A stretch of DNA of 37,415 bases from Fidelibacterota bacterium (GTDB lineage: Bacteria; Fidelibacterota; Marinisomatia; Marinisomatales; TCS55). The notes beneath the pieces are model-generated. The model did not search any database and was not told where the DNA came from. It was given only the letters and a program-made list of their open reading frames with translations. Positions 9,406 through 37,415 of this stretch are shown piece by piece (position 1 is the stretch's first letter; each line of letters begins with the position of its first letter). Both the position numbers and the translations under genes were made by a program. The stretch is from positions 1 to 37,415 of the forward strand of contig DTTO01000022.1 of NCBI GenBank assembly GCA_012964665.1. Reading direction: 5' to 3'.

Positions 9406-10631
9406 GTTACAAAAATCAATTCATGGCTCATACTCAGCTTATCCTTTCACCTTTTTTCGAGCGCACAACTAAATTGAATGAATCTCAGGAGTGGCGTCGG
9501 TGGTCAGGGTATCTTGCAGCAACCAATTACGAGCTTACCCACGAAAATGAATACTTTGCCATCCGCACCAAAGCCGCTTTACTAGATATTACTCCATTAT
9601 ATAAATACATAATATCGGGTTCGGACGCCCAACAATTTCTTGATCGCCTAGTAACACGGAATATTGGTATCTGTAAAGTTGGACAGGTTATGTACACTCC
9701 TTGGTGTGATGAAGATGGGAAACAGATAGATGATGGTACGGTACAAAGATTAGCTAATGATAAATTTCGTATTACCAGTGCCGAGCCGAACTTGGAATGG
9801 ATCGAGCAAAATGCAGCAGGAATGAACTTAACCATCAGCGATGATTCTAAAACTACCGCTGCTTTAGCTTTGCAGGGTCCAAATTCTCGTGCTATTCTCA
9901 ATTCCATTGCTAGCGATTCTTTGGACAGTCTCAAATTTTTCTGGATGATGAATACCCAGTTTCATGATATTTCTGTTACTATTTCCCGTACCGGATACAC
10001 CGGTGACTTGGGTTATGAAATATGGATGGACCCGAAGGATGCACTATCCGTTTGGGACTTATTGATGGATAAGGGTAAATCTTATGGTATAACACCCACC
10101 GGTCTCCAGGCATTGGATATGGCCCGCATCGAAGCAGGACTTATTTTGCTCGATGTGGATTATATATCTGCACGGCATGCTATTATCGAACCCCGAAAAT
10201 CTTCACCCTACGAGCTTGGGTTAGGATGGGCTGTAAAAATGAAGAAAAAAGATTTTATCGGTAAAAAAGCTTTAAAAGCGGAATTGTTACGTGGACCTAA
10301 ATGGAATTTAGTTGGGATTGAAATTGAATGGGAAGGACTGGAAAATCTCTATCGTGATGCTGGCCTGGCACCTGGTCTTCCTAGTACCGCATGGCGAACC
10401 AGTACCCCCTTATACCATGGTGATGAACAGGTGGGTTATGCTACCAGTGGATGTTGGTCTCCCATCTTAAAACGTTACATTGCTCTAGCTCATGTGAAAT
10501 CGGAATTTTCTCAATTGGGATCAAAATTAAAATTTGAGCTCAAGGTAGAACATTTTCGAAAACTTACCCCTGCCAAAGTAGTCAATACTCCCTTTTTTGA
10601 TCCAGAAAGGAAACGGTCATGCCCACAATAA
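9402..10631 (+). CDS. GcvT-like folate-dependent aminomethyl/methyl transferase
   Basis: The protein has the GcvT (T-protein) architecture: QIDDGTVQRL near residue 115 matches the IDD block whose Asp is essential in T-proteins, followed by TGYTGDLGYEIW, GLQALDMARIEAG and SPYELGLGWAVKMKKKDFIGKKAL. These enzymes move a one-carbon unit from a methylated or aminomethyl donor to tetrahydrofolate. At 409 residues it is longer than ordinary GcvT, with roughly 40 extra N-terminal residues and an insert near residue 320, which suggests a specialised relative (of the DmdA, sarcosine or dimethylglycine dehydrogenase class) rather than the housekeeping T-protein. It overlaps both neighbours (ATGA upstream, 13 bases downstream). 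Next to two flavoproteins it would capture formaldehyde-level carbon released by oxidative N-demethylation; that is inference. Confidence 0.8.
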   Translation: MSYKNQFMAHTQLILSPFFERTTKLNESQEWRRWSGYLAATNYELTHENEYFAIRTKAALLDITPLYKYIISGSDAQQFLDRLVTRNIGICKVGQVMYTPWCDEDGKQIDDGTVQRLANDKFRITSAEPNLEWIEQNAAGMNLTISDDSKTTAALALQGPNSRAILNSIASDSLDSLKFFWMMNTQFHDISVTISRTGYTGDLGYEIWMDPKDALSVWDLLMDKGKSYGITPTGLQALDMARIEAGLILLDVDYISARHAIIEPRKSSPYELGLGWAVKMKKKDFIGKKALKAELLRGPKWNLVGIEIEWEGLENLYRDAGLAPGLPSTAWRTSTPLYHGDEQVGYATSGCWSPILKRYIALAHVKSEFSQLGSKLKFELKVEHFRKLTPAKVVNTPFFDPERKRSCPQ

Positions 10632-12199
10632 AAAAATATGATGCCATCGTTATTGGTGGTGGTCATAACGGTCTGACCGCGGCTGCTTATTTAGCCCGCG
10701 CTGGGAAGGAAGTGCTCGTATTGGAAAGACGGTACGTACTTGGTGGAGCAGCGGTTACAGAAGAAGTTTTTCCCGGCTTCAAATTTTCTGTCTGTTCCTA
10801 TGTGGTGAGTTTATTAAAAGCCAACATAATCCGGGAATTGATGCTGCCTAAGTTTGGCCTAGAACTCCTTCCATTGGAAAGCACATTTACACCATTAGAA
10901 AATGATTATCTAATTCGTACGGCTGATCCAGATGAAACCTATCGTGAGATGTACCGTCACTCACCACGGGATGCTGAAACTTACACGCGGTTCGGGCCAT
11001 TGATGGGCCAGATCGGAATGGCTGTCCGTCCTATACTCGAAACGATTCCTCCCAATGCTATTCGTCCCAGTTTTCCTGATCTCAGTGCCATGAAAAAACT
11101 GCTGAACCATTTTAAGACCTTATCCGATGAACAATTCGAATATCTTACCAAACTAATGACAATGAGTTCGGCGGACTTTCTAGATGAATGGTTCGAATTT
11201 GAACCTCTAAAGGCAACTATGGCTGCCAGTGGGATCATCGGCACCTTTATGGGACCTCGCTCACCTGGTTCAGCCTATGTAATGCTACACCACTATATGG
11301 GTGATATTGATGGTTCATTTCGAGCCTGGGGATTCCAGCGTGGTGGTACAGGGGCCGTTAGCATGGCCATCGCACGCTCAGCTGAACATTTTGGCGCTAA
11401 AATAATGACCGAAGCACCAGTGGAAAAAGTGATTGTCAAAAATGGACGGGCTGTAGGTGTTGCCCTTGAAAACGGGGATGAATACAAAGCGGATAAAGTT
11501 ATTTCTGGTTTAGACCCAAAACTTTCTTTTTTGAAAATGGTTGATGAAACCGATCTTCCCAATGATTTTGTAACAGATATCAAAAATTTCCGTATTCGCG
11601 GTTCATCCGGTAAAGTAAACCTAGCCCTGGATGTACTTCCTGAATTCACCTGTTTGCCCGGTAATGGACCTCATCTTCGCGGTGCCATTTCCATTAGTCC
11701 AGATTTTGATTATATTGAAAAAGCTTACGACGATGCCAAGTATGGAAATTTTTCTGAAGCACCTTATATTGATATTATTATACCATCAGTCCTTGACCCA
11801 GAAATGGCACCACCTGGGAAACATGTTATGTCCTGCTTTGTACAATATGCACCCTACAACATTAAGGGAGGATGGAATGATCAAAAGCGGGAAGACTTTG
11901 GCGACGCTGTGATCAATGCTCTTGCCCGTTATGCACCCAATATTAAAGAAATTATTCTTCATCGGCAGGTGCTCACGCCGGCTGATATTGAATCTACATT
12001 TGGTATGACGGAAGGAAATATTTTCCATGGTGAGCTTACCTTGCAACAATTGTTTGCTCTACGACCTGCAGTAAAATGGGCTAATTATAAAACTCCTATC
12101 ACCAATTATTATCAATGTGGTTCAGGTACGCACCCTGGCGGAGGAATCACAGGATCTCCTGGAGAAATGGCAGCAAAAAAGATCCTAAAGGACTGGTAA
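10619..12199 (+). CDS. PYROXD2-like FAD-dependent oxidoreductase, canonical copy
   Basis: This 526-residue flavoprotein resembles human PYROXD2 and bacterial phytoene-desaturase-related amine oxidoreductases. The N-terminus has the FAD Rossmann motif IVIGGGHNGLTAAAYLARAG, followed by the ERRYVLGGAAVTEE motif; the C-terminus has CGSGTHPGGGITGSPG, the second FAD-contact block. The long central region carries the substrate domain. The family reaction is mostly unknown; a carotenoid role is not supported because no phytoene synthase is nearby. GAAAGGA lies a few bases before the ATG, inside the end of the GcvT-like gene. It is followed with a one-base stop-start overlap by a second, divergent paralog, which suggests a two-subunit enzyme. 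Confidence 0.85.
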   Translation: MPTIKKYDAIVIGGGHNGLTAAAYLARAGKEVLVLERRYVLGGAAVTEEVFPGFKFSVCSYVVSLLKANIIRELMLPKFGLELLPLESTFTPLENDYLIRTADPDETYREMYRHSPRDAETYTRFGPLMGQIGMAVRPILETIPPNAIRPSFPDLSAMKKLLNHFKTLSDEQFEYLTKLMTMSSADFLDEWFEFEPLKATMAASGIIGTFMGPRSPGSAYVMLHHYMGDIDGSFRAWGFQRGGTGAVSMAIARSAEHFGAKIMTEAPVEKVIVKNGRAVGVALENGDEYKADKVISGLDPKLSFLKMVDETDLPNDFVTDIKNFRIRGSSGKVNLALDVLPEFTCLPGNGPHLRGAISISPDFDYIEKAYDDAKYGNFSEAPYIDIIIPSVLDPEMAPPGKHVMSCFVQYAPYNIKGGWNDQKREDFGDAVINALARYAPNIKEIILHRQVLTPADIESTFGMTEGNIFHGELTLQQLFALRPAVKWANYKTPITNYYQCGSGTHPGGGITGSPGEMAAKKILKDW

Positions 12200-13764
12200 T
12201 GGTACACTATGATATAATAGTTGTTGGCGGCGGGTTGAACAGTTTGGTCACTGCATCCATTCTTGGAAAGTCGGGGAAAAAAGTATTGGTCCTTGAAGCT
12301 AAAGACCAAGTGGGCGGTATGGCTGTTACAGCTGAATTTGCACCTAAATATAAATGCAACATGTTAAACGATACGGTAAAGTGGATTGATCCCAGAGTTA
12401 TGAAACAATTGGATCTGGTATCCCAAGGTTTGGAATTGGTTTCTCCAGATGTAGTACGGATCGCCTTGGACCAAAGCGGCCAGCATATTTTATTTCATCA
12501 GGATCCAAATCAAACTGCTAAATCCATCGCAAATCATTCCGATAAGGATGCCAAAGCCTGGCAGGCATTCGCAACTTATATTGATAATCTATCTCAGTTT
12601 TTAGAAAAACTGTATGAATTAACACCACCAAAACTTCCGGATTTAGGATTGAAGGAAGTTTTATCTTTACGATCTATGTTAAAGCCCATAAAAAAGCATG
12701 GCACCCGTGGTCTGGTTGATTTTATGCGCGTGGTACCAATGATGATGCCGGAACTCATGGATGAGTGGTTCGAATCCGAATTACTTCGGGGCGCTGTTTC
12801 TACTGCTGGCATAAACCACATTACCTTAGGGCCATTTTCTGCGGCTACAGGCTATAACTTGCTCCACCAACATGTACACGCCAATGGCGTTTTTCATCAT
12901 GCACAGTTCGTAAAAGGTGGTACAGAAAACCTAGCCAATGCCCTGTTAAGATCCGCTGTAGCTAATGGTGTTGAAGTCCGAAGGAATGCAGTTGTCCATT
13001 CTATCAACGTAGCAAATGCGGTGTGCAGTGGTATCACATTAAACGATGAAGGAATCATTGAAGCAAAACAGGTTATTTCTGGTTTGGATCCACATAATAC
13101 ATTTATAAACCTGGTTGGTCCATCAGAACTAAATCCTACTTTTTATACCCAACTCCGAAATATCAAATACCGCGGCAGCGTGGCCCGGATTCACTTTGCA
13201 TTAAATGGCCTTCCGGAGATTAAAGGCGTGAAAGAAGACCAAATGAATACTGTTTTTTCCATTAGTCCTTCCATCGAATATTTGGAACGAGCCGCTGATG
13301 ATGCCAAGTATGGTCGCATTGCTGAAAAGCCTTACATTGAATTTACTTTCCCTTCGGTGAGTAACTCGGATTTTGCACCTAAGAGAAAACATGTCCTATC
13401 CGCCACATTGCAATATGCGCCTTACCACCTGCGTGGCCAACATTGGTCTGACGATCTGAAAGAACAACTAAGAAATAACGTGATTAAGACTCTAGAAAAT
13501 TATATCCCTAAAATTTCATCTATGATCGAATATACTAGTGTTCTTTCGCCCAAGGATCTGGAAGATAAATTTGGTTTAACTGAAGGAAACCTTAACCATG
13601 GTGAAATGACATTGGATCAATTCTTTTTTATGCGTCCAACGATAAGCTCAGCACAATATAAATCACCTATTGAAAATCTTTATCTTTGTGGTCCAGGGAC
13701 TCATCCAGGTGGTGGATTACATGGTGCTAATGGCTACAATGCAGCCTATCAGATCATTAAATAG
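12199..13764 (+). CDS. PYROXD2-like FAD-dependent oxidoreductase, divergent second copy
   Basis: This is a paralog of the preceding gene, 521 residues from the chosen start. The track begins at 12115, but ATG at 12199 overlaps the previous stop as TAATG, has AAGGA eight bases upstream, and the protein then starts MVHYDIIVVGGG directly at the FAD motif. The nucleotide-binding loop reads GGGLNS: the third glycine of GxGxxG is Ser, while EAKDQVGGMAV and the C-terminal CGPGTHPGGGLHGANG are kept. FAD binding may be weakened or altered. It lacks the ERR motif and the FSVCSY-type segment of the first copy. The pair may form a heteromer in which one subunit catalyses and the other supports. It is the last gene of the plus-strand operon. 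Confidence 0.83.
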   Translation: MVHYDIIVVGGGLNSLVTASILGKSGKKVLVLEAKDQVGGMAVTAEFAPKYKCNMLNDTVKWIDPRVMKQLDLVSQGLELVSPDVVRIALDQSGQHILFHQDPNQTAKSIANHSDKDAKAWQAFATYIDNLSQFLEKLYELTPPKLPDLGLKEVLSLRSMLKPIKKHGTRGLVDFMRVVPMMMPELMDEWFESELLRGAVSTAGINHITLGPFSAATGYNLLHQHVHANGVFHHAQFVKGGTENLANALLRSAVANGVEVRRNAVVHSINVANAVCSGITLNDEGIIEAKQVISGLDPHNTFINLVGPSELNPTFYTQLRNIKYRGSVARIHFALNGLPEIKGVKEDQMNTVFSISPSIEYLERAADDAKYGRIAEKPYIEFTFPSVSNSDFAPKRKHVLSATLQYAPYHLRGQHWSDDLKEQLRNNVIKTLENYIPKISSMIEYTSVLSPKDLEDKFGLTEGNLNHGEMTLDQFFFMRPTISSAQYKSPIENLYLCGPGTHPGGGLHGANGYNAAYQIIK

Positions 13765-13839: not shown

Positions 13840-14748
13840 TTAGTTGAAAAACTGAGATAGTTTTTTAATATAGTCTGGTGTTGTACCACAGCAGCCTCCA
13901 ATAACTGTCGCACCAAGATCATGCCAGTGTTTGCATTCTTGCAAATGTTGATCAGCACTATATTCATCGGTGAACTGCCATTCGGGAGGATTAAATTTTC
14001 CTACATGGGCATAGACGCCTAAAGCTTTGTCCCATAATGGTGCTAGTTGCTCCAAACCTGCGGTAACATGATCGGGCGGAGCACAGTTTAATAACAATAC
14101 GTCCGGTTCATTGCGGGACATAGCATCTACAACCTCTGCCATGGACTGGCCTCCCAGGAGGCGGCCATCCTGATAGGGAACAAAGGCGACCCAAGCTGGC
14201 TTGCCTACTTCTTTTGCAGCCTTGATTGCCACCTCCGCTTCCGGGGTTGAATTGAATGTTTCAAACAAGAAAATATCCGCGCCGGCTTCAGCATAGTCTG
14301 TCAATTCCTCTAAATATTCGTCATATATTTCTTCGACATCCGGACTGCGATCCGGCCGAAAACACCACTCCAAAGTAGTAATGGAAGCAGCAATCAGAAT
14401 ATTATTATGATCAATTGAGCTGCGCGCGTTATCTGCCAAGGCAACTGATTCCCGAATTAATTCGCCAGCCCGATTCAATAGCCCCCTAGCACCAATTGCT
14501 TCCAGGTGTTCATTATTAGCGAAATGATTTCGAAAGCTACGTTTACTGAGTTGGAAGGTGTTGGTAGTAATCACGTCTGCACCAGCACTTATATAATCTT
14601 GATGAATCTCTAAATTTAATTCCGGTTCACTCTTTAATTGATGACTAGCCCAAGTATATCCACGACGTAAAATTTCTGTTCCAATACCGCCATCAAGAAT
14701 CGTTACCTGCTTAGAATCCATCTTGTTTTTTAATTCTTTATAGCTCAT
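13840..14748 (-). CDS. Homocysteine S-methyltransferase family protein (BHMT-like), zinc site intact
   Basis: The 302-residue protein is a pterin-independent methyltransferase of the BHMT/MHT family, which passes a methyl group from a small donor such as betaine or S-methylmethionine to homocysteine, making methionine. The start DGGIGTEILRRG is the family signature; the three zinc-binding cysteines are present in LLLNCAPP near residue 216 and GGCCGTTP near residue 288. The N-terminal part and TTNTFQLSKR near residue 60 match the family. It is the downstream member of a tandem pair, four bases after the second, zinc-less paralog. It converges on the flavoprotein operon, so the shared theme is methyl and one-carbon metabolism. 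The donor cannot be read from sequence. Confidence 0.87.
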   Translation of the reverse strand: MSYKELKNKMDSKQVTILDGGIGTEILRRGYTWASHQLKSEPELNLEIHQDYISAGADVITTNTFQLSKRSFRNHFANNEHLEAIGARGLLNRAGELIRESVALADNARSSIDHNNILIAASITTLEWCFRPDRSPDVEEIYDEYLEELTDYAEAGADIFLFETFNSTPEAEVAIKAAKEVGKPAWVAFVPYQDGRLLGGQSMAEVVDAMSRNEPDVLLLNCAPPDHVTAGLEQLAPLWDKALGVYAHVGKFNPPEWQFTDEYSADQHLQECKHWHDLGATVIGGCCGTTPDYIKKLSQFFN

Positions 14749-14752
14749 GATT

Positions 14753-15682
14753 TTAACCTATTATTTCCCGCACAGCACGGATATGTTCAGGTGTGGTGCC
14801 ACTGGAACCACCTACGATGTGTACACCCTGATCCAACCAGTTATTAACCTGCTGAGCATATTTTTCCGGCGATATTTCATTTGTGTCTTCAAAGCGCGGA
14901 TAAAAGTCAGGCTTCCAACTTGGTGGACTGTATCTGCCTATAATTGCCTTGGCACCACAGGGTGATCCATTAATAATATTGGGAAGGCTTCTTGTTATCA
15001 TGGGTATGCTTCCAGCGGAAACTAATACAGCTTCAGCACCTTTTTCGCGGGCAAGATCGGCTGCATCTTTTAGTGATTCACCATTTAATAAATTTCCATC
15101 TACTCCGGGAACAAAACTCATCCACACAGGTAAATCAAACCCTATGGCCGCTTGAAGGGCCATCTGTGCTTCTCTGGTGTTATTCATACCTTCAAAAAAG
15201 ATAAGATCAACACCACAGTCTGACAGGATTTTTACGCATTCTTTATGGTGAGTTAGGCAATCGTTTTCAGGCGGTGACAAATCAGGGCGGAATAAATGCA
15301 TGACAGGTGAAATGGAACCGGCAAGTGGAACAGTTTGTGCCTTACCAGTATGCGTTAATGCTTCTTTTGCCAAAGACACTGCGGTACTGCATAATTCCAT
15401 CGCTCTTGTAGGCAGGCCGGGAGCGCCGATTAAATCCATATGATCTGCATCCCGGAAGAAATTGATAAAGTTACGCTTGGTCAAATTGAAAGTGTGCGTG
15501 GTGAGAACATCAACTCCAGCCTCCAAATAGTCAATATGTATATCACGAATAACATCTGGTGCATCTTTGATCCCATGCTGACGCCAGCGGATACCACGGC
15601 GAAGTACTTCCGTTCCAACCCCACCATCCAATAAAACAGGTTTTTTGGTTGAAAAATTTTCTTTAATTATATTGTAAGTCAT
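14753..15682 (-). CDS. BHMT-like paralog that has lost all three zinc cysteines
   Basis: This 309-residue paralog keeps the fold signature (DGGVGTEVLRRG, TTHTFNLTKR) but its zinc motifs are changed: where the intact neighbour has LNCAPP it has VSAGSIP, and GGCCGTTP has become GGSSGTTP. Without these cysteines the classic zinc-activated thiol chemistry is not possible, so it is either a non-catalytic partner of the 13840 protein, a methyltransferase with a different acceptor, or an enzyme in which another group does the job. The gene is intact over its full length and shows no decay, so selection appears to maintain it. No Shine-Dalgarno is visible before the ATG. The partner follows four bases later, which makes co-translation likely. 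Confidence 0.8.
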   Translation of the reverse strand: MTYNIIKENFSTKKPVLLDGGVGTEVLRRGIRWRQHGIKDAPDVIRDIHIDYLEAGVDVLTTHTFNLTKRNFINFFRDADHMDLIGAPGLPTRAMELCSTAVSLAKEALTHTGKAQTVPLAGSISPVMHLFRPDLSPPENDCLTHHKECVKILSDCGVDLIFFEGMNNTREAQMALQAAIGFDLPVWMSFVPGVDGNLLNGESLKDAADLAREKGAEAVLVSAGSIPMITRSLPNIINGSPCGAKAIIGRYSPPSWKPDFYPRFEDTNEISPEKYAQQVNNWLDQGVHIVGGSSGTTPEHIRAVREIIG

Positions 15683-30528: not shown

Positions 30529-31839
30529 TTATATAGTAACTTTTTGTTTTATTTGACCATCAACTACGGCTCCGTGGTTGACACTAAGACTGACTAATTT
30601 AATTGTATTAATACTATCAGCTTCCCCATCTGCCCGGACCTGGATATAATTATCCGTGTGTCCCACAACTTTCCCATTTTTCATTTTTTCAAATAACACT
30701 GGCCGTTTGTTACCAATGAATTTTTCATGAAAGAACCGCCGTTTTTTATCAGACAGAATATGCAGCATTTTGCTGCGATGGGCTCGTTTTTCCTTTGAAA
30801 TCTCCGGCTTCAAATTAATTGCATCCGTATTGGGTCGCTCGGAATAGGTAAAAACATGCAGATAGGAAATATCCAATGAATTTAAAAAGTTGTAGGTATT
30901 CAGAAAATCATCGTTGGACTCTCCAGGAAATCCCACGATTACATCCACGCCAATGCAGGCATCAGGAATGCAATCTTTGATTTTTTTCATTCTGTTTCCA
31001 TAAACAGCACTATTGTATCGTCGACGCATAGCACTTAATATTTTATTTGAACCAGACTGCAATGGCACGTGGAAATGAGGCATGAACTTTTTGGATGTGG
31101 CACAAAACTCAATAATATCATCTGTTAGTAAATTGGGTTCTATGGACGAAATACGAATCCGATCAATTCCTTTCAGCCCTTCCAATTCCTGGAGGAGACC
31201 AAAAAGTGTTTCTTTTCCACCTTTTCCAAAATCACCGATATTGACACCAGTAAGGACAATTTCACGGGCATCGGTCTTTGCAACTTTTCTAGCTACTTTC
31301 ATGGTATTAGCGATGGTATCGCTCCGACTTGCACCACGGGCCAGTGGAATCGTACAAAAAGAACAGGTATAATCGCAGCCGTCCTGTATTTTCAGAAATG
31401 ATCTTGTTCGCTCTCCCGATGAATAAGATGACGTGAAAGAATGGACCTGATCAATTTTTGACTGGATAACCTTTGCGCCATTATTTAAATCCATGGTATC
31501 TAAATGATTGAGCAGGTTGAATTTCTCTTCGGCGCCAAGAATTAAGTCTACACCTTTAATATCAGCAATTTCATCGGGTTTTAATTGGGCATAGCAGCCA
31601 ATCACCGCTATGGAAGAATCTGGATTTCTGCGCTTAGCCTGGCGAATTAGTTTCCGTGCTTCTTTATCGGCATTTTCTGTTACAGAGCAGGTATTTAATA
31701 CGTAAATATCTGCCTTATCACGGTAATCCACTTTTTCAAATCCATGATTAAGGAGATTACGGGAAATGGTGGCCGTCTCGGAAAAATTCAGTTTACATCC
31801 CATGGTGTGAAATGCAACGCGTTTTGTAGGTGTACTCAT
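30529..31839 (-). CDS. mtaB: tRNA (N6-threonylcarbamoyladenosine37) methylthiotransferase MtaB
   Basis: This radical SAM enzyme adds a methylthio group to t6A at position 37 of tRNAs reading ANN codons. The N-terminal iron-sulfur ligands are in GCKLN, NTCSVT and GCYAQ, the radical-SAM cluster in GCDYTCSFC, and the C-terminal TRAM domain lies in the last 70 residues. HTMGCKLNFSETA identifies MtaB rather than MiaB or RimO. The track starts at a TTG (31887); ATG at 31839 (MSTPTKRVAFHTMGCK) is preferred because it places the first motif at the usual distance from the N-terminus and gives 436 residues, the usual family length. The gene stands alone, convergent with gcvP and divergent from the PAS-prenyltransferase gene. 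Confidence 0.93.
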   Translation of the reverse strand: MSTPTKRVAFHTMGCKLNFSETATISRNLLNHGFEKVDYRDKADIYVLNTCSVTENADKEARKLIRQAKRRNPDSSIAVIGCYAQLKPDEIADIKGVDLILGAEEKFNLLNHLDTMDLNNGAKVIQSKIDQVHSFTSSYSSGERTRSFLKIQDGCDYTCSFCTIPLARGASRSDTIANTMKVARKVAKTDAREIVLTGVNIGDFGKGGKETLFGLLQELEGLKGIDRIRISSIEPNLLTDDIIEFCATSKKFMPHFHVPLQSGSNKILSAMRRRYNSAVYGNRMKKIKDCIPDACIGVDVIVGFPGESNDDFLNTYNFLNSLDISYLHVFTYSERPNTDAINLKPEISKEKRAHRSKMLHILSDKKRRFFHEKFIGNKRPVLFEKMKNGKVVGHTDNYIQVRADGEADSINTIKLVSLSVNHGAVVDGQIKQKVTI

Positions 31840-31871
31840 GGCTAAATCAAGTCTGAGAATTTCGATAAAAT

Positions 31872-31895
31872 TTAATATTTGAAACAAAATATTAA
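31872..31895. promoter_or_regulatory. Nine-base inverted repeat in the mtaB/PAS-prenyltransferase intergenic region
   Basis: TTAATATTT and AAATATTAA form perfect nine-base arms around a GAAACA spacer. It lies in the 138-base gap that separates the divergent starts, where operators are often found, and could serve either gene. As the sequence is very AT-rich it may be a chance or structural element. Confidence 0.3.
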
Positions 31896-31977: not shown

Positions 31978-33246
31978 ATGGATGAAAAAATAAAAAGTGT
32001 CATCACCTGTGACTTAGATGGCAAATTAGAAACCTTCAGCGAAGGCGCGGAAACACTCTTTGGCTATACAGCTGATGAGGTTATTGGTAAAGGCCGTGTA
32101 AGTGATTTTAGTGACGGACAAATTGTTTTAGGCCATGTCGTCAATTGGCTGAAAGAAGCAGTAGAAAAAGGAGCCTGGGAAGGGGATACTGTTTTTTTGC
32201 ATAAGGATGGTTCAGAGATCCCTTGTCACATTAAAATCACACCAACCAAAGATAAAAATGATAATCATATTGGTTATTGTGGTGTTACAACCCTCTTGAC
32301 AGACAAAACGCCTGATGAGGTTCGTCCAAATATTGGACTCATGACGAAGATATTCACATGGCTGGTGATTATGCGCCTACCATTTTTAACAGCTACATTT
32401 GTCCCCTTACTGGTTGGCGCAGCGGTGGTAAACTTTTTGGGCTATGATGTCAGCTGGGGATGGCTTGGATTAACGATTCTAGGCGGATCCCTACTCCATA
32501 TTGGGACGAATACGGCCAACGATTATTTTGATCATACCAGCGGTACGGATGAGGCCAATTATAATTATATGGTTCCTTATTCAGGTGGTAGTCGCAGTAT
32601 CCAAATGGGATTAATCTCTGCCAAAGGCATGCTTACCGTTTCACTGGTTGCATTTGCATTGAGTGCTGTTGTAGGTGTTCCTTTAATCCAAAAAGCGGGT
32701 ATGAATATATTATGGCTTGGTTTGATTGGATTCGTATCTGGATTTTTCTATACCGCGCCACCTTTCCGCTTTGCATCCCGTAAAGGATTGGGTGAACTAT
32801 TGATTGGATTGAATTTTGGCCCTCTCATGGTAGCAGGTAGTGCTTTAGTACAGACCGGCAAGATTTTACCGGAAGCTTTATTAGCTGGAATACCCATTGG
32901 GTTACTCGTAGCCGCCATTGTTTACATGAATGAATTTCCTGATCATGATGGTGATAAAGCCACTGGCAAGGATACACTTATTGTGGTGTTTGGTCCAGAA
33001 AAAGCACGGCTGGGCTATGTATTACTGGTTGCTGGCGCTTTTGTAAGTATTGTGGTGATGGCTATCAATGGGACTTTTCCTATGTTATCATTGATCGCTT
33101 TACCCGCAGCCTATTTTGGTTTCAAAGCCATTCAGACATTATATGAATATTATAATGATCGACTTTTGCTGCCCGCCAATGCCGGTACCATTAATATGCA
33201 CCTGGTGACCGGATTGCTTTTTTGTATCGGTATATGGGTCGGATAA
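31978..33246 (+). CDS. PAS-domain fused to UbiA-family (MenA-like) prenyltransferase
   Basis: The 422-residue protein joins two modules. Residues 1-115 form a PAS sensory domain (SVITCDLDGKLETFSEGAETLFGYTADEVIGKG; DGSEIPCHIKITPT). From about 125 to the end it is a UbiA-superfamily integral membrane prenyltransferase with about eight or nine helices. The prenyl-diphosphate motifs are NDYFDHTSGTDEAN near residue 180 and DHDGDKATGKDT near residue 320; GGSRSIQMG and the second motif resemble MenA, which prenylates 1,4-dihydroxy-2-naphthoate for menaquinone. Ordinary MenA has no PAS domain. GAGG lies nine bases before the ATG. No stop or frameshift separates the modules, so it is one reading frame. 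The sensed signal (oxygen, redox, light or a ligand) cannot be read. Another UbiA substrate is possible. Confidence 0.87.
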   Translation: MDEKIKSVITCDLDGKLETFSEGAETLFGYTADEVIGKGRVSDFSDGQIVLGHVVNWLKEAVEKGAWEGDTVFLHKDGSEIPCHIKITPTKDKNDNHIGYCGVTTLLTDKTPDEVRPNIGLMTKIFTWLVIMRLPFLTATFVPLLVGAAVVNFLGYDVSWGWLGLTILGGSLLHIGTNTANDYFDHTSGTDEANYNYMVPYSGGSRSIQMGLISAKGMLTVSLVAFALSAVVGVPLIQKAGMNILWLGLIGFVSGFFYTAPPFRFASRKGLGELLIGLNFGPLMVAGSALVQTGKILPEALLAGIPIGLLVAAIVYMNEFPDHDGDKATGKDTLIVVFGPEKARLGYVLLVAGAFVSIVVMAINGTFPMLSLIALPAAYFGFKAIQTLYEYYNDRLLLPANAGTINMHLVTGLLFCIGIWVG

Positions 33247-33256
33247 AATCGAATGT

Positions 33257-33282
33257 AAAAAGCCCTCGCAAGAGGGCTTTTT
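33257..33282. terminator. Bidirectional terminator between the PAS-prenyltransferase and carB genes
   Basis: AAAAAGCCCTC and GAGGGCTTTTT form a perfect 11-base stem around a GCAA tetraloop, with T-runs on both strands. It lies between convergent genes; the last T belongs to the stop codon of carB. Confidence 0.92.
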
Positions 33283-36200
33283 TATTGGTGATATTCCTGA
33301 ATGGTTTGAACGCTAATCTTTTGCCCGGCTAACCGTATTGCTCTTACTGCGGCTTCTGCGCCAGAAAGAGTGGTTATCGCTACAATTCCTTTTTGAATAC
33401 ACGCTCTTCCAATAGCTTCTTCATCGTACCGTGATCGTTCACCCATCGGTGTATTGATCACCAAATTTATGTTATCATTTTTTATTCCATCGACGATGTT
33501 TGGGCGGCCTTCTCCTACTTTAAAAATGGACTTCACCGGAATGCCATTCCGACTTAATTCCTGGGCTGTCCCAGACGTTGCCAATATATCAAATCCAATT
33601 TCATAAAGGTCTCTGGCTATGGGAATCACATCCAGTTTATCTGAATTATTTACGGAAATAAATACTGTTCCTGAATCAGAAAATTTATTGCCCGCACTAA
33701 TGGATGCCCTGCGAAACGATTGTCCAAAGGTACTCGAAATTCCCATGACTTCTCCCGTAGATTTCATTTCCGGGCTTAAAAAAATAGATTCCTCCGGAAA
33801 TTTATTAAATGGAAGAACTGCTTCCTTCACAGCAATGTGATGCTTATTGTCCCATTGTTTCAGATCAAAATGGGAAAGTTTCAATCCGATCGCTAATTGG
33901 GATGCAATCCGGGCCAAGGGCGTATCGGTGGCTTTACTGACAAAGGGAATAGTTCTGCTGGCTCGGGGATTCACTTCCAGGACATACACCTCTCCATCTT
34001 TGTAAGCGAATTGAAGATTGATAAGACCGATAACTTTCAGTTCAATTGCCAGTGCTTCAGTGATTCGAATAATTTCATCCATTGCTTCGGTGGTAATTCG
34101 ATAAGGTGGCAAAACGCAGGCAGAATCTCCTGAGTGAATACCTGCTTCTTCAATATGCTGCATAACCGCACCGATATGCACTGTTTCACCATCACATAAT
34201 GCGTCTACATCAAATTCAAAGGCATCCTCTAAAAATTCATCAATTAAGATGGGATGGCCCTCAGTCACATCGGCCGAGCGAGCAATATAATCGATGAGCT
34301 GTTCTTTGGAATAAACAATTTCCATTGCACGGCCGCCCAAAACATAGCTGGGTCGGGCCAGCACTGGAAAGCCGATCCGTTCTGCTACAGCCACTACTTC
34401 ATCCAGTGTCCGGCCTGTTCCGTACTGAGGACAAACTATATTGAGTTTGTCAAGTATCTTTCCAAATTTTTCCCGATCCTCAGCCAGGTCGATACTTCGA
34501 GGAGAGGTTCCAATAATAGGTGCACCTGCGTCTGCCAAGGCATTGGCAATTTTTAAAGGAGTTTGTCCACCAAATTGAACCAACACACCGTCAGGCTTTT
34601 CAAATTCCACAATATTCAATACATCTTCAAATGTAACCGGCTCGAAATACAGACGGTCCACCAGATCAAAATCCGTGCTAACTGTTTCCGGATTACAATT
34701 TACCATTATAGTTTTATAGCCTTGGTCCTGCAATCCAAATACTGCCTGAACACAGCAATAATCAAACTCAATCCCCTGACCGATTCGATTGGGCCCACCA
34801 CCCAGTATGATTACTTTTTTACCTTCTAAAGGATGGATCTCGTTCTCTTCATCATAGGTAGAGTAACAGTAAGGAGTCTGTGCAACAAATTCTGCAGCGC
34901 AAGTATCCACTACTTTGTAAGCTGGATAAACCGATTCTTTCTTTCTCCGGGCCCGGATTTCAATTTCCGTTTTTCCGGTCATGCGACCAATCTGTCGATC
35001 AGAAAACCCATTATGTTTTAATGTGCGTAGAGATGGAATACTTTGTGTTTCTTGACCCTTTAAATCGACCAGTTTTTTTATCTGTTGCAAAAACCATGGG
35101 TCAATCTTCGTTAAATTGAATATATCTTTAACGGACTGACCTTCCAAAAATGCCTGGCGTACTTTCAATAGCCGAAAAGCTGTAGCATACCGCAAAGTGG
35201 ACATGTCCAATGATCGTGCTCTGTGCAAATCCGGGTCGCCTTTTGCCGGTGGTTTTGGTTCCAGTCCATCCAAACCAACTTCCAGGGAACGAAAGGCTTT
35301 TTGCAGAGATTCCCGGAATGTTCTTCCAATAGACATTACTTCTCCCACACTTTGCATTTGCACACCCAAATGACCGGAAGCAGAAGGAAATTTTTCAAAA
35401 TCAAAGCGCGGAACCTTTGTTACAATATAATCGATGGTTGGTTCAAAAGCCGCTAAAGTCTTACCGGTAATATCATTGGGCAATTCATCCAGGGTATAAC
35501 CTACCGCTAGTTTTGCTGCTACCTTAGCGATGGGAAAACCCGTGGCTTTACTCGCCAAAGCAGATGAACGACTTACCCGGGGATTCATTTCAATAATAAT
35601 GCGGCGGCCCGTTTCTGGATCAACCGCAAATTGAACGTTAGAACCCCCTGTTTCTACACCAATAGTTCTCAGACACTGAATTGCGTCATTTCTCATATGC
35701 TGGTATTCTTTATCCGTTAACGTCATGGCTGGAGCAACCGTGATAGAATCGCCCGTATGAATACCCATGGGATCAATATTTTCAATTGAACAAATGATTA
35801 TGGCGTTATCTGCTTTGTCCCGGATGACTTCCAGCTCAAATTCTTTCCAGCCCAAAAGAGATTCTTCAATCAATACTTCTGTGATGGGACTGGCATTCAA
35901 GCCGTTTTCAACTAATTCCTGAAATTCTTCAAAGTTATAGGCAACCGATCCGCCTGTCCCACCCAAAGTAAATGAAGGTCGAATGATAATTGGAAATTTT
36001 ATTTCTTCAAGGAATGCTTCTGCTTCCTGCCAAGAATGGATAAAACCGCCCTGGGCCGTTTCAATACCAGCGTCATCCATAGCTTCTTTAAAGCGTTCCC
36101 GGTCTTCTGCTTTTTCAATAGCATCCACTTGGGCACCGATGAGTTGAACATGATATTTTTTAATAATCCCCTGCCGATGTAAATCCATTGCCAGGTTTAA

Positions 36201-36485
36201 AGCCGTCTGCCCACCAACTGTAGGTAGAATGGCATCGGGTTTTTCTTTTTGGATAATTGCTTCTACATATTCCGGTGTGATGGGCTCGATATAGGTTGCA
36301 TCGGCTAAATTCGGATCGGTCATGATCGTGGCCGGATTGGAATTCACCAGGATAACACGATAACCTTCTTCTTTTAGAGCACGCGTGGCCTGTGTGCCGG
36401 AATAATCAAATTCGCAAGCTTGGCCAATTACGATGGGACCAGCGCCAATAATTAATATCGATTCAATATCAGTTCTTTTTGGCAT
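33282..36485 (-). CDS. carB: Carbamoyl phosphate synthase large subunit
   Basis: The large subunit makes carbamoyl phosphate from bicarbonate, ammonia and two ATP, the first step towards arginine and pyrimidines. At 1067 residues it is full length with the expected duplicated ATP-grasp halves: [21 protein letters not shown] near the start and [20 protein letters not shown] near residue 560, each followed by metal and ATP motifs ([28 protein letters not shown]). The C-terminal MGS-like domain ([15 protein letters not shown]) is the usual allosteric site. The ATG follows the carA stop by six bases, so the two subunits are co-expressed. No regulatory site is visible in the window, since the operon promoter lies beyond the right edge. 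Confidence 0.98.
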
Positions 36486-36491
36486 GTAAAA

Positions 36492-37415
36492 TTATTTTCC
36501 CATCAAATCAATAAATTGTTGAAACAGGTATCGACTATCATGGGGACCGGGACTGGATTCAGGATGGTACTGTACCGAGAAAGCAGGAAAATCCTCACAC
36601 CGAATCCCTTCTGATGTATTGTCATTCAAATTTACATGGGTGGAAATGACGGTTTTAGGAAGTGAATCAAGATCGACCGCAAAACCATGGTTCTGACTAG
36701 TGATTTCCACTACATTTGTATCATTATTTCTTACAGGATGATTGATTCCTCGATGTCCAAACTTGAGTTTAAATGTTTTGGCCCCAAGCGCTAATGCCAG
36801 TATTTGATGTCCCAAACAAATACCAAATATGGGTACTTCTCCTAATAACTGTTTAACCGTTGCTATTCCATAGGTCACGGCTGCTGGATCACCAGGGCCA
36901 TTGCTTAAAAAAACACCATCGGGATTTATTTTTAAAATATCTTTAGCCGAAGCACTGGCAGGGAAAACAGTAATATCACAACCATGGCTTTCTAAAAGGC
37001 GTAGAATATTATACTTAATCCCGTAGTCAACTGCTGCCACTTCATATTTATTTGACCTACCATTTTTTGACCATGTAAATTTCTTTTTGGTTGTGACAAC
37101 TTTTGCCAAATCTAGGCCATCCATGGATGGCACTTTTGAAAGTTTTGCTTTTAAACTGTCCAAATCCAGATCCACAGAAGAAATAATCCCATTCATCGCA
37201 CCCCTATCACGGATATGCCGGGTGATCGCCCGGGTGTCCACTTGTTGAATGCCTACAATATTTTGTTCATCAAGATAACTTCCAATGGCAGCTGTTGAAC
37301 GCCAATTAGAGGGAATTTCTGTTGCTTCTTTTACTACAAAACCGGCAACCTGGATTCGATTCGATTCGATGTCTTCCGGGTTAACACCATAATTCCCGAT
37401 ATGGGGTGCTGTCAT
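36492..37415 (-). CDS. carA: Carbamoyl phosphate synthase small subunit, 5' end outside the window
   Basis: The glutaminase subunit supplies ammonia to CarB. The class I glutamine amidotransferase triad is complete: Cys in GICLGHQILALALG, and His and Glu in VQYHPESSPGP. The first residues in the window, MTAPHIGNYGVNPEDIES, align with an internal block of CarA (normally preceded by about 60 residues with the TGYQE motif), so the Met at 37415 is an internal residue and the true start lies beyond the right edge. The remaining part is about 307 residues. It is followed after six bases by carB. Distant from any other arginine or pyrimidine gene in this window. Confidence 0.96.
   Translation of the reverse strand: MTAPHIGNYGVNPEDIESNRIQVAGFVVKEATEIPSNWRSTAAIGSYLDEQNIVGIQQVDTRAITRHIRDRGAMNGIISSVDLDLDSLKAKLSKVPSMDGLDLAKVVTTKKKFTWSKNGRSNKYEVAAVDYGIKYNILRLLESHGCDITVFPASASAKDILKINPDGVFLSNGPGDPAAVTYGIATVKQLLGEVPIFGICLGHQILALALGAKTFKLKFGHRGINHPVRNNDTNVVEITSQNHGFAVDLDSLPKTVISTHVNLNDNTSEGIRCEDFPAFSVQYHPESSPGPHDSRYLFQQFIDLMGK

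Follow-up and report, generated by a model that had tools for sequence, protein, structure and literature searches.

The closest described counterparts of the protein analysed here are MenA, the DHNA polyprenyltransferase defined by TIGR00751, and UBIAD1, the animal menadiol prenyltransferase; UBIAD1-type enzymes act on a reduced ring. For the N-terminal part, the nearest counterparts are the FAD-binding PAS domains of NifL and Aer, and many PAS domains dimerise. The F-alpha tryptophan is the primary determinant of FAD binding in PAS domains, with a histidine and an asparagine as secondary determinants (PMC10468136), and the role of the flavin-site asparagine is treated in both PMC10468136 and PMC12540587. 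Control within a quinone pathway is described in PMC9835592, which reports feedback of DHNA on MenD in Staphylococcus aureus and also cites MenD of Mycobacterium tuberculosis. Many lineages have no predicted quinone pathway, and undiscovered quinones have been suggested (Chobert et al. 2026, PMC13386864); the methyl-plastoquinone of Nitrospirota is presented in PMC12324825, which cites Elling et al. 2025. For the Marinimicrobia, NQR and NDH complexes are described throughout the group in the accessible sections of Getz et al. 2018 (PMC6143742), which name no quinone used by it.

The stretch of DNA analysed (the window, 37,415 nucleotides) belongs to a MAG of 1.59 Mb that is 76% complete. As the earlier note had read it, one uninterrupted frame encodes a PAS domain followed by a complete UbiA domain with NDYFD and DHDGD motifs (Table 1); the protein is called PAS-UbiA below. 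Pfam places PAS_9 at residues 8-101 and UbiA (PF01040) at residues 143-389. The full-length AlphaFold model (pLDDT 80) shows a PAS fold (residues 7-106) and then a multi-helix, membrane-type UbiA bundle, and sequence profile and fold both fit a PAS domain at the N-terminus. The UbiA domain with its two Asp-rich motifs places the protein in the UbiA superfamily, and the intact metal motifs indicate a prenyltransferase that is presumably active.

Table 1. Features of the PAS-UbiA locus, in window coordinates (residue numbers refer to PAS-UbiA)
Feature	Position	Strand	Remarks
MiaB/MtaB-type radical SAM gene	30529..31887	-	divergent from PAS-UbiA
PAS-UbiA gene	31978..33246	+	422 aa; transcribed as its own unit, diverging from upstream gene and converging with carB
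PAS domain	31999..32301	+	residues 8-108; PAS_9 3.7e-13; AF2 PAS-only model pLDDT 86
Cys11	32008..32010	+	invariant in 26/26 PAS-UbiA proteins; on first PAS strand
Trp57	32146..32148	+	invariant in 26/26; aligns with F-alpha tryptophan of NifL PAS
Phe73	32194..32196	+	invariant in 26/26; in column of NifL flavin-site asparagine
Linker, residues 109-121	32302..32340	+	least conserved part, 47% mean identity
UbiA prenyltransferase domain	32341..33243	+	PF01040 1e-30; best fold match UBIAD1 8djk
First metal motif NDYFD (N181-D185)	32518..32532	+	N181 and D185 invariant in 26 PAS-UbiA proteins
Second metal motif DHDGD (D322-D326)	32941..32955	+	D322 and D326 invariant in 26 PAS-UbiA proteins
G+C hairpin flanked by A and T runs	33257..33282		between convergent PAS-UbiA and carB ends; probable two-way terminator, read from sequence
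carB	33282..36485	-	convergent with PAS-UbiA
carA	36492-37415		adjoins carB; cut by window end

Elsewhere in the window, an arginine-deiminase-like and a glycine-cleavage-T-like gene are followed at 10619-13764 by two ORFs of the flavin amine-oxidase type (10619-12199 and 12115-13764), which overlap in different frames. Two adjacent homocysteine S-methyltransferase genes occupy 13840-15682 on the minus strand. The genome also holds two complex I operons in tandem, side by side (L169, G000:C60); the first lacks nuoEFG and matches the noncanonical NDH described for Marinimicrobia by Getz et al. 2018 (PMC6143742).

To place the fusion in its phylum, 245 Neomarinimicrobiota (SAR406) genomes were searched with the PAS domain at E <= 1e-12. 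Sixty-one genomes matched: 57 carry PAS-UbiA (cut by contig ends in 3), one (G191) holds a remnant, and 3 matched through unrelated PAS proteins. Fusions 69-96% identical to the window protein occur in other genomes, mostly of Candidatus Neomarinimicrobiota/Marinimicrobia, and a search of viral contigs returned none. Because the same full-length fusion is found in many independently assembled genomes, it is neither a chance event nor a chimaera, and an assembly or binning artefact, which the earlier note had allowed for, was rejected on dozens of such cases.

The PAS domain is kept in close relatives, contrary to the second refuting case named in the earlier note, and is no less conserved than the enzyme; among 26 fusions, pairwise identity averages 0.65 for PAS and 0.60 for UbiA, where the UbiA part goes down to about 40% identity. 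dN/dS was mostly saturated and was left out of the argument. The stretch between the last PAS strand and the first membrane helix has 31 residues in every one of the 25 proteins measured, and lengths vary outside it (PAS core 89-93, UbiA part 293-301 residues). The constant spacing fits a mechanical coupling of the putative sensor to the membrane part, without amounting to proof of it.

The attribution to MenA, as an ordinary enzyme with a sensor added, is not supported by closer analysis. The best NCBIfam matches of the window protein are all MenA-type, nearly all of them far below cut-off; it passes TIGR00751 narrowly (107 against a cut-off of 102 bits), a PAS-UbiA orthologue 44% identical to it scores 70 bits and falls under that cut-off, and a genuine MenA from a men operon in the phylum reaches 277 bits. 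In the UbiA tree, men-operon MenA forms a separate clade (support 100) with which PAS-UbiA does not group. The name MenA is therefore doubtful for PAS-UbiA, and MenA-like holds only loosely. No further menA was found in the 76%-complete window genome, where the only other UbiA-family gene detected has CtaA- and SCO-like neighbours and is read as the haem O synthase CtaB. A third UbiA-family gene of many relatives (∼280 aa, between prmC-like and dnaE-like genes) was rejected as a quinone enzyme, since it matches archaeal lipid prenyltransferases. At L106, L107, L108, L110 and L111 this gene precedes dnaE and resembles archaeal geranylgeranylglycerol-phosphate geranylgeranyltransferase; it was not found in genus g1.

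The quinone genes of the phylum point in the same direction. MenB is present in 64 of 244 genomes and PAS-UbiA in 57, with an overlap of 0 (Fisher p 1.7e-9, kinship ignored). The objection from kinship is partly answered by genera g1, g3, g34 and g59, each of which contains both MenB genomes and PAS-UbiA genomes. In a set of 61 relatives, 12 genomes pass the cut-off for MenB and 13 that for MenD, and PAS-UbiA is carried by none of these; MqnA/D, MenB and MenD are over cut-off in 0 of the 26 PAS-UbiA genomes in this set. The futalosine route to menaquinone was rejected for all 61, where PF02621 (MqnA/D) is absent and was found in control genomes. Ubiquinone- or plastoquinone-type hydroxylases were likewise discarded, with UbiH-type hydroxylase over cut-off in 0 of the 61 genomes. 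Complex I, which is quinone-dependent, is present in 56 of the 61. These absence calls rest on curated cut-offs, and single absences are weak because the genomes are MAGs; the men searches that fail in PAS-UbiA genomes succeed in sister genomes within the same genera. This last result bears on the reading that PAS-UbiA is an ordinary MenA whose DHNA comes from men genes that escaped detection through divergence or missing assembly. The narrow pass of TIGR00751 speaks for it; the uniform absence of the markers, the tree and the sub-threshold orthologue speak against it, and we consider it very unlikely.

Furthermore, other genomes of the order carry a sister enzyme, PNPOx-UbiA, in which a UbiA part about 40% identical over residues 120-422 follows an N-terminal PNPOx-type domain (PF01243), whose nearest solved relatives are Lin2891 and general stress protein 26. 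In the UbiA tree the PAS-UbiA group has support 93, the PNPOx-UbiA group 100, and the two are neighbours with support 96. Genera g1, g6, g12 and g38 hold both forms, and no single genome was found to have both.

A locus in genus g1 shows one gene in the place of an operon. In G004 (L113) the order after a DUF4340 gene is TetR, ubiE, thioesterase and then men genes (for a chorismate-binding enzyme, MenD, MenB, MenA and a MenC/AMP-ligase fusion). In G001 (L068) the same DUF4340 gene, TetR, ubiE and thioesterase are followed by PNPOx-UbiA, and in G003 (L043) the DUF4340 gene is followed directly by PAS-UbiA; L068 and L043 have downstream genes in common. In the window genome PAS-UbiA is located elsewhere, beside carBA.

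Both fused forms, intact in other genomes, have a decayed copy in a genome with men genes. G191, the one men-containing genome with PAS-UbiA sequence, has MenB and a PAS-UbiA remnant (L156:4997-5569, minus strand) that keeps PAS and the first membrane segment, has lost reference residues ∼147-384 and contains an in-frame stop. Similarly, G038 has men genes and, beside carA, a PNPOx-UbiA remnant (L172:3089-3561, minus strand) with a deleted core and stops. Its congener G051 has both men genes and a PNPOx-UbiA of intact length. Decay in men-containing genomes is the pattern that functional redundancy predicts, and it amounts to a natural test of function. The same pattern weighs on the proposal that PAS-UbiA makes a non-respiratory prenyl lipid, such as an antioxidant or signalling compound. 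UbiA enzymes make many lipids and no ring genes were identified, but mutual exclusion with men genes and decay in their presence speak against such a product; no other quinone-type UbiA was seen in the window genome, and the other copies examined read as CtaB or as enzymes of the archaeal-lipid type. We consider this proposal very unlikely too.

Given the lack of overlap with MenB, the locus swap in g1 and the decay in men-containing genomes, the most likely role of PAS-UbiA is tail attachment in an alternative quinone route, be it a new pathway or head-group salvage; the quinone-tail role proposed in the earlier note is thereby supported. It would take the place of the men pathway, joining an isoprenoid tail to a respiratory quinone ring where recognised men and futalosine genes are missing. 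We hold with moderate confidence the fuller reading that PAS-UbiA attaches the tail of the respiratory quinone in these lineages and that its PAS domain senses the quinone/flavin pool and adjusts attachment. The soluble N-terminal PAS, separated by one fixed-length linker from the first membrane helix, would most likely respond to the state of that pool through a bound flavin or quinone-like ligand, and would adjust tail attachment; the quinone product, the flavin or quinone ligand and the direction of control are what we infer. Against this reading count the lack of adjacent ring genes, the lack of UbiE in most of the genomes, Phe73, and the co-occurrence of men genes and PNPOx-UbiA in G051. 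A bolder version, advanced tentatively, is that PAS-UbiA and PNPOx-UbiA attach the tail in a respiratory-quinone pathway not yet described, which may lead to a new quinone, with a fused flavin/quinone sensor controlling attachment at protein level.

The ring may be made de novo, by genes outside the recognised sets, or salvaged from outside. No ring-synthesis gene set was found beside PAS-UbiA, and UbiE over cut-off is missing from most PAS-UbiA genomes (G012, G027 and G044 have one). Salvage would mean that an environmental ring, DHNA or menadione-like and coming from other plankton, receives a new tail from PAS-UbiA as it does from animal UBIAD1, with PAS sensing the scavenged ring and PNPOx-UbiA plus ubiE as the DHNA-salvage form. 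It would suit the single gene standing where a congener has a whole men operon, the absence of linked ring genes, the small genomes, the kinship with UBIAD1 as closest solved relative by sequence and fold, and the ubiE and thioesterase kept with the PNPOx form (ubiE directly adjoins PNPOx-UbiA in L065, L067 and L072). An abundant free-living lineage obligately dependent on a scavenged respiratory ring would, however, be unusual, and in G192 ubiE overlaps PAS-UbiA on the same strand, which speaks against an already methylated ring there. Salvage is possible, though we do not favour it.

Neighbouring genes were considered as a pathway and rejected: a cyclase-family gene lies upstream in f7 and a GNAT gene in f8, elsewhere there are housekeeping genes only, and there is no consistent partner. 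The order gcvP, miaB-like, PAS-UbiA recurs in family f7. At L160, L165, L166, L167, L037 and L044 PAS-UbiA is immediately preceded, on its own strand, by a PF04199 cyclase-family gene, and lexA-like and DNA polymerase-type genes are downstream. Pyrimidine genes recur beside PAS- or PNPOx-UbiA, with carA/carB in several families and pyrF-pyrE in family f8 (window 33282-37415; L071, L159, L065, L067, L069, L072; L073, L161-L164); in several relatives it is carA that lies next to PAS-UbiA or PNPOx-UbiA(-ubiE). Dihydroorotate dehydrogenase can use quinone.

The PAS domain is probably regulatory and perhaps flavin-based, to judge from its residues. By Foldseek the nearest folds of the PAS model are 3lyx and the NifL FAD-PAS, near the top, with LOV and Aer PAS domains after them; of the domains whose cofactor is known, the NifL FAD-PAS aligns best (5.5e-5). 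Of the hallmarks of FAD-binding PAS domains (NifL/Aer/MmoS), the F-alpha tryptophan is present (Trp57) and the flavin-ring asparagine is absent (Phe73). With regard to the haem-ligating histidine of haem PAS domains (FixL, Aer2), a candidate, His53, is found in 24 of 26 proteins. Flavin binding is uncertain because Phe73 replaces the asparagine; with Trp57 as the main FAD determinant in place, it is possible rather than established. The case for a flavin gains from the sister UbiA, which has a PNPOx-type (flavin-type) fold at this end. Alternatively, the ligand may be an aromatic compound, for instance a quinone ring. A photosensing LOV domain was excluded, with no reactive cysteine and no Cys in the stretch from C-alpha to F-alpha. 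Cys11 and Cys101 are both highly conserved, and a disulfide switch between them was considered and dropped, the two being predicted on opposite faces of the sheet, as we assume by homology to LOV strands. The redox-type sensor of the earlier note is supported in part, by the invariant tryptophan and by the flavin-type fold of the sister enzyme. Gating by oxygen, redox or a ligand is plausible.

Two readings would give the PAS domain no sensory role. It may, together with PNPOx, be a flavin-dependent helper that keeps the ring as reduced hydroquinone for UbiA or delivers it to the membrane, which would agree with two unrelated flavin-type folds at the same end of sister enzymes and with the use of a reduced ring by UBIAD1-type enzymes. 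The flavin asparagine is not conserved, however, the short PAS showed no NAD(P)H site, and PAS domains are not known to have reductase activity; a helper is unlikely. A structural or dimerisation module with neither ligand nor signal would be in keeping with the frequency of dimerisation among PAS domains and with the absence of a signalling partner domain, yet C11, W57 and F73 in the core are invariant in 26 proteins with UbiA parts as divergent as noted above, and we doubt this reading as well. A sensor of the quinone/flavin pool is preferred to both.

SAR406 bacteria, abundant in the ocean, possess respiratory complexes that depend on quinone. As PAS-UbiA is found, across the phylum, only in genomes without intact men genes, it offers a starting point for finding out how these bacteria make their quinone or obtain it: a marker for the lineages with the missing route and a handle on the protein to examine. 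If PAS gates the enzyme, quinone tail attachment would be under the direct control of a sensor, a type of control for which no report was found; a literature search for PAS combined with UbiA or MenA returned no paper.

Compared with known systems, PAS-UbiA has the UbiA fold, the NDxxD and DxxxD motifs and the MenA-type best NCBIfam matches of MenA, and differs from it in the N-terminal PAS, the genomes without men or futalosine genes, the separate clade and the borderline or failing family score. UBIAD1 (PDB 8djk) is the closest solved structure by sequence (7e-10) and fold, but is only ∼21% identical, has no PAS and is a eukaryotic ER/Golgi enzyme. The FAD-binding PAS domains of NifL and Aer (PDB 2gj3, 8dik) are fold neighbours with the same invariant F-alpha tryptophan, whereas PAS-UbiA has an invariant Phe for the flavin asparagine and a membrane enzyme as output in place of a kinase, anti-activator or chemoreceptor. 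DHNA-MenD feedback, as described in PMC9835592, is similarly ligand control of a quinone pathway at protein level, but it acts through an allosteric site on MenD, the first committed step, and not on tail attachment or through a fused PAS. Finally, the Nitrospirota methyl-plastoquinone, as presented in PMC12324825, provides a precedent: respiratory complexes, no canonical quinone pathway, and a new quinone found by lipid analysis.
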